64,000 nucleotides of DNA, from positions 1 to 64,000 of the forward strand of contig JAFRJC010000137.1 of assembly GCA_017432445.1 (NCBI GenBank), read 5' to 3'. Under the pieces are notes generated by a model. It was given only the letters and a program-made list of their open reading frames with translations. It did not search any database and was not told the DNA's origin. This DNA comes from Eggerthellaceae bacterium (lineage in GTDB: Bacteria; Actinomycetota; Coriobacteriia; Coriobacteriales; Eggerthellaceae). The number at the start of each line of letters is the position of its first letter. Positions within the stretch are counted from its first letter, which is position 1. This document shows, one piece after another, positions 34,882 to 37,841 of this stretch. The translations under genes and the position numbers were made by a program.

Positions 34882-37425
34882 ATGGTTATGGACGAAATCA
34901 CCCTCGAAGAGCTGGCAGTCCGCGCACGCGAAGACAAAGTTGAGCCCGATGGAGCGCTCGAGCTGTTCATGGAGTGGCAAGAGGCGCAAGGGATTGAGCT
35001 GTGGCCCCATCAGGAAGATGCCTGCTTTGCCCTTGCCCTGGGCGATCACGTGATATTGGGCACGCCCACGGGAAGCGGGAAGTCCATCGTCGCCTTGTGG
35101 CTCGCTTTCCTAGCGCTGTGCACGGGTAGGCGCATGTACTACACCGCTCCGATAAAAGCACTGGTAAGCGAGAAGTTCTTCGATTTCGTGGATGTGCTTG
35201 GACGAGATAACGTCGGTATGCTCACCGGCGATGTGGCCCTGAACGGCGACGCTCCTGTCATCTGCTGCACGGCCGAGATCCTGGCAAACGATGCCCTGCG
35301 CTACGGCGATGACGGCGAAGTGGCGTTCGCCGCCATGGACGAGTTCCATTACTTTGGGGACCCGCAGCGCGGCTGGGCGTGGCAAGTGCCGCTCCTCGCG
35401 CTCAAGTCGGTCCAGTTCCTACTGATGAGCGCTACGCTGGGCGATACTGCGGCCATAACGGCGAAGATTGAGGAACAGTCGGGCCGCGCGGTGACGACCA
35501 TCGCCGATGCTCCGCGCCCGGTGCCGCTTACTTACGAGTTCGCCGACTCTTCGCTGCTCGAGGGCACGATTGAGCTTGCGCTCAAGCGCGATCTGGCACC
35601 TGTCTACATCGTGCATTTCGCCCAGGATGCTGCGCTCAAAAGCGCCCAATCGTTGGCAAGCTTCGGCGTTTCCACAAAGGAGCAGCGCGAGGCCATAAAG
35701 GAGGCCATACGAGGCGTGCGCTTCACCACCGCCTTCGGGAAAACCTTGAAGCGACTTTTGCTCATGGGGGTCGGCGTGCACCATGCCGGCATGCTGCCAC
35801 GTTACCGTCGCTGTGTCGAGCGGTTGGCGCAGGCGGGCGTGCTTCCCGTCATCTGCGGTACCGATACCTTGGGCGTGGGCATCAACGTTCCCATCCGCAC
35901 GGTGCTGCTCACGGCATTGGCCAAATTCGACGGTTTCCGCGAACGTCGTCTGAACGCGCGAGAGTTCCACCAAATTGCAGGGCGCGCCGGACGCAGCGGT
36001 TTCGACAACGAGGGTACGGTTATCGCGCAGGCGACCGTCTACGACATCGAACGCAACAGGGCGCTGGCCAAGGCGGGTGGAGATCCCAGGAAAGCGCGCA
36101 AGATCAAGACGCCCAAGCCGCCGGAGGGTTTTGTGGGCTGGAACGAGCAGACGTTCACGCGCCTGATCGAGACGCAGCCCGAGCCGCTGCGGCCCCGCAT
36201 GCGCGTGACGCACGCCATGGTGCTTGCCGAGGTCATGCAGGGGGGCGATGCGTGGCTGCGCATGCATGACCTGGTGGAGTCCAGCATGCAGACCGATGAG
36301 CAGAAAGAGCGGTTAAGCCAGCGTACCGATGAGGTGTTCGCCACGCTCGAGGCTGCGGGTATGATAGGCCGCGAGCAAGAAGGCGATGGTGAATCGTGGT
36401 TCCTCGAAGAGGAGATGCCCGACCGCTTCGCGCTCGACCAACCGCTCTCTCCGTTCTTGTTGGCCTCGCTGGAGCTGTTGGATCGCGAGGATCCCTCGTA
36501 TGCGCTCAACGTCATCTCGATGATGGAAGCGACGCTCGAGGATCCCCGCCAGATTCTGCGCGCGCAGGAACGTTCGGCGCGCGATGCGGCCATGGCCGCT
36601 ATGAAGGCGGAAGGGGTTGAATACGACGAGCGCATGGAGCGTCTGCGCGAAGTGACGTATCCAAAACCTCTTGACGAACTTCTGGCGGGTGCATTCGAGC
36701 TGTACTGCCTCGAAGTTCCGTGGGCAACAGATTTCGCGCTTTCACCGAAATCGGTGTTGCGCGACATGATAGAGACCGCGAGCGACTTCAAAACGTACAT
36801 CCAGCGCTATGGACTTTCGCGTTGCGAAGGGATCCTCTTGCGTTACCTGGCCGATGCGTACCGCGTGCTCGACCGAACGATACCGCCCGACTTCTTCGAC
36901 GAGCGCCTGGACGACATCGTGCATTGGCTGGGGTGGCTCGTGCGCGCCATCGACTCGAGCCTGTTTGACGAGTGGGCTGGCGTGGAATACTCCGACGATG
37001 CCGATGCCGCAGCCCCATTGGATGCCGATGTAGTGGTGGCTGATCGACGTGCCATGACGCTGCTCGTCCGAAACGCGCTGTTCGCACGCGTGCGCTTGGC
37101 GGCTGATGATCGCGCTGACGAGCTGGGGGCCCTCGATGCCGAATGGGATTGGCCTGCCGCGCGATGGCAGGCGGCGCTCGACGAGTTCTACGGTGAACAT
37201 GAAGAGCTTCTAACGGACGCATCCGCTCGCTCGACGCGTTATTTCGAGGTGGACGAGACCCCAGAACGCTCGGAACACCTTTGGCATGTGCGGCAGATAT
37301 TCCTCGACGTTGACGAGGACCTCGATTTCCGCATCATGGCCGACTTGGATTTGGACGCCACCCAAGAACAGGGCGAGGCTGTCTTCACAAACTATCAAGT
37401 CGGCTTCGTGGAGGACTTGCAATAG
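34882..37425 (+). CDS. Ski2-like DEAD/DEAH helicase with DUF3516-type C-terminus
   Basis: An 847-residue superfamily II helicase. Motif I 'GTPTGSGKSIVAL', motif II (DEFH) in 'AAMDEFHYFGD', motif III 'LMSATLGD', motif V 'GTDTLGVGINVPIRTV' and motif VI 'QIAGRAGRSG' are all present, in the Ski2/HelY order. The C-terminal half (about 420-847) is helical and matches the DUF3516 region of actinobacterial homologues. RNA or DNA as substrate is not settled. The ATG at 34882 (a second at 34888) follows the lysozyme stop by 3 bases with no strong ribosome site, suggesting coupling. Confidence 0.9.
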   Translation: MVMDEITLEELAVRAREDKVEPDGALELFMEWQEAQGIELWPHQEDACFALALGDHVILGTPTGSGKSIVALWLAFLALCTGRRMYYTAPIKALVSEKFFDFVDVLGRDNVGMLTGDVALNGDAPVICCTAEILANDALRYGDDGEVAFAAMDEFHYFGDPQRGWAWQVPLLALKSVQFLLMSATLGDTAAITAKIEEQSGRAVTTIADAPRPVPLTYEFADSSLLEGTIELALKRDLAPVYIVHFAQDAALKSAQSLASFGVSTKEQREAIKEAIRGVRFTTAFGKTLKRLLLMGVGVHHAGMLPRYRRCVERLAQAGVLPVICGTDTLGVGINVPIRTVLLTALAKFDGFRERRLNAREFHQIAGRAGRSGFDNEGTVIAQATVYDIERNRALAKAGGDPRKARKIKTPKPPEGFVGWNEQTFTRLIETQPEPLRPRMRVTHAMVLAEVMQGGDAWLRMHDLVESSMQTDEQKERLSQRTDEVFATLEAAGMIGREQEGDGESWFLEEEMPDRFALDQPLSPFLLASLELLDREDPSYALNVISMMEATLEDPRQILRAQERSARDAAMAAMKAEGVEYDERMERLREVTYPKPLDELLAGAFELYCLEVPWATDFALSPKSVLRDMIETASDFKTYIQRYGLSRCEGILLRYLADAYRVLDRTIPPDFFDERLDDIVHWLGWLVRAIDSSLFDEWAGVEYSDDADAAAPLDADVVVADRRAMTLLVRNALFARVRLAADDRADELGALDAEWDWPAARWQAALDEFYGEHEELLTDASARSTRYFEVDETPERSEHLWHVRQIFLDVDEDLDFRIMADLDLDATQEQGEAVFTNYQVGFVEDLQ

Positions 37426-37841
37426 CAATTATCGCCGTTCCGCCTGGCCAGACGAGGTGGTGCGCGGGGCATGCGCGTGCTAACCGCTCGTCGCTTCGGC
37501 ACGGCAGTTGGGCCGAGCGCTCGGAAAACGAGCCAGTGGCTCGTTTTCAGCGAGGCCGGGCAAGCTTCAGCTTGCCCCTGTACATGCTTCCAGTACTATT
37601 TCCTGAACGCGCATAGCGCGATCAGGAACAGTCCTCGCTCCCGCCGTGCCTGCGCTTCCTCGCAGCACGCGAAAGCCCCGCGCACCACCTCGTCTGGCCA
37701 GCCATGGAACGGCAACAATCTGTCCCCAAATGGTTATGTAACGGTAGGATGTGCGTTTGGGGAATTGTTCTAGATTGCGCTATCATGAGGGCGATTTCAA
37801 AAGACTGCAACGGAGCAGTTTGGAAGAGAAAGGATTTTGGG
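37426..37841. other. Intergenic region almost filled by a 280-bp palindromic element
   Basis: 416 bases between the helicase and the zinc-ribbon gene. Nearly all of it is the nested inverted repeat at 37434-37713; the rest, about 130 bases, contains the leader of the zinc-ribbon gene with GAAAGGA as its ribosome site. No coding potential was seen. Confidence 0.6.
37434..37713. repeat. 280-bp multi-hairpin palindromic element (MITE-like or structured RNA)
   Basis: Outer arms pair in two blocks: GCCGTTCC (37434-37441) with GGAACGGC (37706-37713), and a perfect 27-bp block, 37444-37470 with 37675-37701. The inner arm GCGTGC/GCACGC continues it. Inside are three tight perfect hairpins: AAAACGAGCC/GGCTCGTTTT (37525-37547), GGGCAAGCT/AGCTTGCCC (37558-37577), and a stem TTCCTGA/TCAGGAA enclosing CGCGC-ATA-GCGCG (37600-37628). 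The result is a stem with three arms. No ORF and no clear target duplication were seen. It may be a miniature transposon, a REP-type element or a non-coding RNA. Confidence 0.8.

Follow-up and report, generated by a model that had tools for sequence, protein, structure and literature searches.

The palindrome at positions 37434–37713 of the window (i.e. the whole 64-kb stretch of Eggerthellaceae DNA that was analysed) raises the question of what kind of sequence lies at this gene junction and how it came to be formed. It starts 8 bp past the stop codon of a DUF3516 DEAD-box helicase gene, and the gene beyond it encodes a zinc-ribbon protein. Named relatives of the helicase come from Olsenella, Gordonibacter and other Coriobacteriales (65–68%), in agreement with the coriobacterial placement made from the sequence alone. 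Positions 37434–37441 pair with 37706–37713 (8 bp) and positions 37444–37470 pair with 37675–37701 (27 bp), both without mismatch. Among the perfect palindromes of the window it alone has arms longer than 20 bp. The DNA fold of 37424–37723 has a free energy of −114 kcal/mol versus −61 ± 3.6 kcal/mol for 200 dinucleotide shuffles (z = −14.5), and none of the 200 is as good.

A sequence-only reading had described a nested inverted repeat with these two outer blocks, and its coordinates and pairing are confirmed, although two further stems within the arms were overlooked (37474–37481/37664–37671 and 37498–37505/37643–37650). Three perfect inner hairpins were also described. Those at 37525–37547 and 37558–37577 are indeed perfect, but the one at 37600–37628 has 12 of 13 bp paired, with a single central A·A mismatch. 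The three had been taken as arms of one element; they belong instead to a separate nested element, here termed C. The surrounding element is termed B, and the parts of the locus are as follows.

37434–37470, no strand: left outer arm of B, locus-specific (8-bp and 27-bp blocks), pairs with 37675–37713; sequence absent from the other copies
37471–37473/37672–37674: 3 × 3 internal loop between the B outer arm and stem a
37474–37481, plus strand: B stem a, 5′ side, CGCGTGCT, pairs with 37664–37671; covaries in 26 copies
37482–37497, plus strand: B unpaired 5′ strand, AACCGCTCGTCGCTTC, conserved in alignment A1
37498–37505, plus strand: B stem b, 5′ side, GGCACGGC, pairs with 37643–37650; 7 of 8 pairs show double-sided changes
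37510–37628, plus strand: element C (hairpins 37525–37547, 37558–37577 and 37600–37628), in place of the B central hairpin; 13 dispersed copies in the same genome
37629–37642, plus strand: B inner strand, CAGTCCTCGCTCCC, near-invariant columns of A1
37643–37650, plus strand: B stem b, 3′ side, GCCGTGCC, covarying
37651–37663, plus strand: B unpaired 3′ strand, TGCGCTTCCTCGC, conserved in A1
37664–37671, plus strand: B stem a, 3′ side, AGCACGCG, pairing and covarying
37675–37713, no strand: right outer arm of B, locus-specific, inverted copy of the left arm by its pairing with it
37471–37681, plus strand: whole B core by covariance model R1 (62.4 bits, E = 4.8e-14)

A 306-base query gives 48 matches in the genome of the window, and these resolve into modules. 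Positions 37465–37510 and 37627–37680 correspond to the dispersed element B, and the outermost arms have almost no match elsewhere in that genome. The copies have in common a core of about 110–130 nt. Twenty-six copies of the same genome can be aligned over 120 nt (alignment A1), and in these the unpaired strands are nearly invariant, i.e. GCAGCTGCGGAACTC ... TCARACAGTCCTCGCTCCCGC, and CTAACCGCTCGTCGCTTC / CTCCTCGCAG. The R1 match of the window copy shows element C as a long insertion at the B centre.

The covariance model finds 29 copies of B in the genome of the window and about 150 over 14 of the 15 genomes of the genus. Across the order, 17 of 199 sampled genomes contain B; 16 of these are additional to the genome of the window and are spread over four other families, and no other genus of its own family is among the matches listed for this sample. 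Plasmids, phages and IMG/VR viral contigs gave no match to B. For many copies, between two and four species have B at the corresponding gene junction. At the junction studied here, six congeners with the same helicase (72–74% identity in the C-terminal part) have no B detected after it, and in one of these six, G010, a palindrome built on another core lies there. Thus another family has struck at this helicase junction.

The sequence-only reading had offered three options, i.e. a non-autonomous transposon, a REP-type element or a structured RNA. A mobile palindromic element is right in kind, because there are dozens of dispersed copies and no B was found at the orthologous helicase junction of the six congeners; the strict REP and MITE forms do not fit, and the RNA is disfavoured. 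The window feature is best explained as one copy of the mobile palindromic DNA element B with the unrelated element C lodged at its centre, and this explanation, taken jointly with an origin of the arms by fold-back copying, is probably correct. A literature search turned up no description of comparable elements from Coriobacteriales.

Stems a and b and the central hairpin of B vary in sequence and keep their pairing. Nineteen of 29 pairs are changed on both sides, and none of 500 shuffles has a covariation score as high. Conserved unpaired strands joined to covarying stems, in copies that recur at orthologous gene junctions of several species, are what a structured non-coding RNA (or an RNA 3′ end) would display if its stems were kept by selected compensatory mutation. 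Under selection for RNA folding, G·T pairs are expected to be much commoner than A·C mismatches. In the B arms there are however 54 G·T versus 83 A·C in all. Arms are unrelated between copies whose cores are identical, copies within coding sequences lie in both orientations and in different frames, and the Rfam 15 covariance models give nothing relevant to the element at E ≤ 1. An RNA is therefore a very unlikely explanation. The covariation, overwhelming at first, was rejected as a sign of RNA for the arms, since G-U pairs are not enriched and identical cores are joined to different arms. A covariance analysis had been put forward as a means of separating RNA from mobile element; it does reveal covarying stems, but these do not identify the arms as RNA. 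Strong covariation without G-U pairs may stem from copying of DNA, and it can be mistaken for a conserved RNA.

Almost all B copies lie within long palindromes. In the outer arms beyond the core, 122 copies provide 3,333 columns, with 3,145 Watson-Crick pairs, 41 G·T, 49 A·C, 87 other mismatches and 11 gaps; the arms are perfect in 47 copies. When the outer arms are read on the opposite strand the G·T to A·C ratio becomes 49:41. As G·T is no commoner than A·C, selection on RNA is not the maker of the arms. The arms are also unique to each locus, and just 6 of 7,381 outer-arm pairs have a 12-mer in common. In G012 the cores of loci L212 and L214 are identical over 110 of 110 nt, yet the near-perfect arms around them (46 and 32 bp, respectively) bear no relation to each other. 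Core pairs of 96–97% identity in G009, G002 and G007 likewise have different arms. Here again, in a genome of another family (G037), the cores of loci L421 and L430 are almost the same whereas their palindromic arms differ (115 and 52 bp, ungapped), and L411 of G100 has a perfect arm of 84 bp. Identical cores with unrelated perfect arms rule out slow compensatory evolution as the source. Arms arise anew at each locus, and rapidly.

This pattern agrees in part with what the sequence-only reading had expected of a mobile element, i.e. many dispersed, near-identical copies with target duplications. The many dispersed copies are found. Only the cores are shared, the outer arms being locus-unique, and direct target-site duplication is not apparent: 21 copies have a flanking repeat of at least 3 bp, versus about 23 expected from shuffled flanks.

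The origin of the arms can be read in priA. The motif RRR(M/L)RG is kept at one point of PriA in 14 of 14 genomes examined, genera without B included. In both G009 and G004 the element lies directly after this motif, at the conserved RRRMRGM codons. These codons (CGCATGCGAGGCATGC and GCATGAGAGGCATGCC) open the left arm, and at the close of the right arm the version particular to each species is repeated exactly in inverted form. The priA genes of G008, G005, G002, G000 and G006, which lack B, have no such palindrome. As a separate observation, the priA gene of G014 (L386) has the RMRGM codons repeated in inverted form but no B core, an apparent scar of a lost insertion.

A conserved zinc-ribbon gene of G006 is a second case. 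The protein ends in CKRLLVVE-stop, and the LLV(I/V)E ending is kept in nearly all congeners. The last codons and the stop codon are within the left arm of B, and a 21-nt inverted copy of them is located past B. None of 19 orthologues of this gene has an inverted copy longer than 10 nt. In priA and in the zinc-ribbon gene, then, one arm is native coding sequence and the other is its inverted copy, which the unaltered allele lacks. At most intergenic loci the orthologous flanks are too diverged to tell which arm is native, with a hint at L274 only.

These two loci bear on the possibility that B enters the loops of existing long palindromes or terminators, the arms being old and owned by the host. 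The position of B is in keeping with this, since it is mostly found just past stop codons, where terminators lie. The reach of the palindromes counts also in favour of arms copied from the locus: the gap between palindrome and gene is a median of 20 nt at 3′ ends, with 42% within 15 nt, versus a median of 94 nt at 5′ ends, and at L268, L269 and L278 the arms extend through the stop codons. The absence of a palindrome from relatives without B, at both loci where this is testable, argues against insertion into a pre-existing hairpin. In addition, arms of 40–115 bp far exceed terminators, and no other perfect arm longer than 20 bp exists in the window. An origin of the arms in the host is thus unlikely.

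A more familiar proposal is that B is an ordinary MITE or REP moved by a host transposase through conserved ends of its own, the unique arms being secondary to palindrome instability. B is indeed small, non-coding, dispersed and hairpin-forming, and most congeners encode Y1 transposases. However, B fails the MITE features that were tested, having neither common terminal inverted repeats nor direct target-site duplication, and the core has no fixed GTAG or CGTC tag; in several copies the CGTC of the 5′ internal loop gives way to another tetranucleotide, e.g. CATC, CTTC or CCTC. The Y1 transposase domain PF01797 is detected in 12 other genomes of the genus, but has no match in the genome of the window, with its 29 copies, or in G005 and G008, all of them B-bearing drafts. 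A Y1 transposase was considered as the mover and rejected, its presence showing no correlation with that of B. There is only a slight chance that B is of this ordinary type. REPs are 20–40 bp long with GTAG or CGTC tags (PMC3733652). B resembles the REP/RAYT system as a high-copy, mostly intergenic palindromic repeat, and differs in its larger size, in lacking a fixed tag and in the lack of a detected Y1 transposase in the genome of the window.

Sixteen B copies, a count that covers open frames only, lie in reading frames that are open throughout the element. Simple open reading frame calling gives shadow genes in this G+C-rich genome, and a hexamer score was used instead; host-gene domains are from Pfam, and MurD and Mfd were named from domain content and motifs. 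The copies are in MurD (four species), Mfd (three), U32 peptidase (three) and PriA (two), and once each in PurL/PurQ, an ABC transporter, a transketolase and a frame that is uncertain. At the place of a short linker in the MurD of other congeners, the insert contributes some 55–75 residues. The four MurD copies are at the same position and in different frames and orientations, thus it is not the peptide that is conserved, and either repeated hits or flipping of the core has occurred. Additions of roughly 55–75 residues to essential proteins, MurD, Mfd and PriA among them, constitute a natural experiment in protein tolerance. The U32 peptidase gene of G004 (L275) has apparently two B-like inserts and a short tandem peptide duplication.

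The open frames also bear on whether the palindromes arose during assembly or library preparation. The genus is represented by draft genomes, probably metagenome-assembled, and hairpins promote chimeras in vitro, so fold-back chimeras might be formed at them. The palindromes are however present in many independent assemblies from several families, the frames are open through 16 in-gene copies, mismatches are scattered in the arms, and some arms are common to two close species. An artefact is exceedingly improbable.

The reading that remains preferred, a likely one with the enzymology deduced, is that B is an RPE-like mobile hairpin: as it inserts or is maintained, fold-back synthesis would copy the neighbouring DNA and leave the target duplicated in inverted orientation. 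B would spread as a hairpin core of about 110 nt. Its self-complementary core would let a strand end fold back on itself (snap-back) and prime synthesis, a polymerase would copy about 20–110 nt of the adjoining flank in inverted form, and the strand would then rejoin its original template. The product would be an inverted target duplication in place of a direct one. Template switching at later times may keep the stems perfectly paired and convert mismatches, and further rounds could lengthen the arms until sequence protected by selection is reached. The polymerase fold-back would occur at insertion or soon after, and a mover of the core is presumed. The strand switch is deduced from sequence comparison rather than from fresh insertions in isolate or population series. 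A stronger form of the model is that fold-back synthesis is itself the insertion step, B being a transposase-free, self-priming hairpin that makes inverted target duplications, a route that several unrelated cores (B, and D and F below) would use. This is possible but tentative. The scar at each copy is an inverted target copy with a readable start and end, at dozens of loci in several species; as the scar records the event, the model of fold-back insertion is directly testable.

Comparison of orthologous junctions indicates what may follow insertion. Loci L274 and L320 are an orthologous pair whose core has a common locus-specific variant, CTCGCAAAACC, and whose arms and stem b are different. 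The core can thus be inherited as the stems around it are exchanged, in keeping with repeated conversion by template switching. Inner stems a and b also have double-sided changes between orthologues, so that a single insertion event does not suffice and repeated conversion, or slow co-evolution, must be at work as well. In the closest pair, L331 and L333 (G006 and G010, flanks 91–95%), uncompensated changes are mostly in one arm. About nine positions differ in the left arm and one in the right, an asymmetry that counts against the model.

Small palindromic repeats are common in bacteria, and their way of moving is mostly unknown. Copies of an RPE family share their palindromic arms, whereas in B, which is from another phylum, only the core is common and the arms are locus-unique; this comparison is by description. 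RPE and the Wolbachia palindromic elements are short, mobile and found both between genes and in frame in conserved protein-coding genes (PMC2229807). RPE families are given there and in another source as 105–146 bp, with repeat identity lost over time (PMC2229807, PMC6649704). B is alike in size class (about 100–150 bp), in its dispersal and in lying both between genes and in frame in open reading frames (16 of about 150 copies are in genes).

Perfect, locus-specific arms as in B are found in nematomorph (Nematomorpha) mitochondrial genes, where long perfect inverted repeats lie in coding genes and template switching is proposed for their origin and upkeep; the text available describes no shared mobile core, whereas each B palindrome centres on a conserved one (PMC6649704). 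As far as these excerpts describe them, neither the RPE nor the nematomorph palindromes combine a shared mobile core with unique arms. Quasipalindrome-associated template-switch mutation in E. coli is fold-back copying at imperfect inverted repeats (PMC7202029), i.e. the step proposed for B, but it is a general mutation process, unlinked to any dispersed seeding element. The hairpin-forming and double-hairpin elements of fungal and sponge mitochondria are likewise dispersed hairpins, occasionally within genes; they are organellar, and no flank-derived, locus-specific arms are described in the available text (PMC2800124). Yersinia YPAL/RU-2 is a palindromic repeat of about 168 bp near dyad symmetry with direct target duplications of 3–26 bp (PMC2229807). 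B is also palindromic, but has no detectable direct target duplication.

Two other core families are similarly arranged. Family D (CGCCTACAGC...AAGCGGCG) has palindromic arms that vary by locus and is found in four congeners, with copies at L106:2547–2677, L334:5010–5140 (in G010, at the helicase junction of the window), L332:4588–4644, L320:2503–2628 and L274:5607–5728. Family F (CTGAGCGCC...AAGCGAAG) has a spacer of about 140 nt and arms of 26–27 bp that are different in each copy, i.e. L259:5310–5503 in G007 and L305:7405–7595 in the genome of the window. A spacer-less 26-bp perfect palindrome, GGTGCCCTGGCCCC..., is at L334:5445–5496 (G010). G004 contains a distinct repeated hairpin, TTGAACATTACCCCAGGG..., e.g. 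at L278:6531–6621 and L280:6887–6970.

The 13 copies of element C are mostly away from B. C was considered as a second element with unique arms, and such arms were not seen; one copy has a 39-bp direct repeat instead. In this copy (L313/L008, contig C73:236439–236564 of the same genome) the repeat flanks C across the apparent start of a gene that presumably encodes a deaminase. At L312 (contig C23:26343–26715 of the same genome) three C copies lie head-to-tail, 126–132 bp apart. In the window itself, a 20-bp perfect hairpin with a 3-nt loop at 2185–2227 is probably an ordinary terminator.
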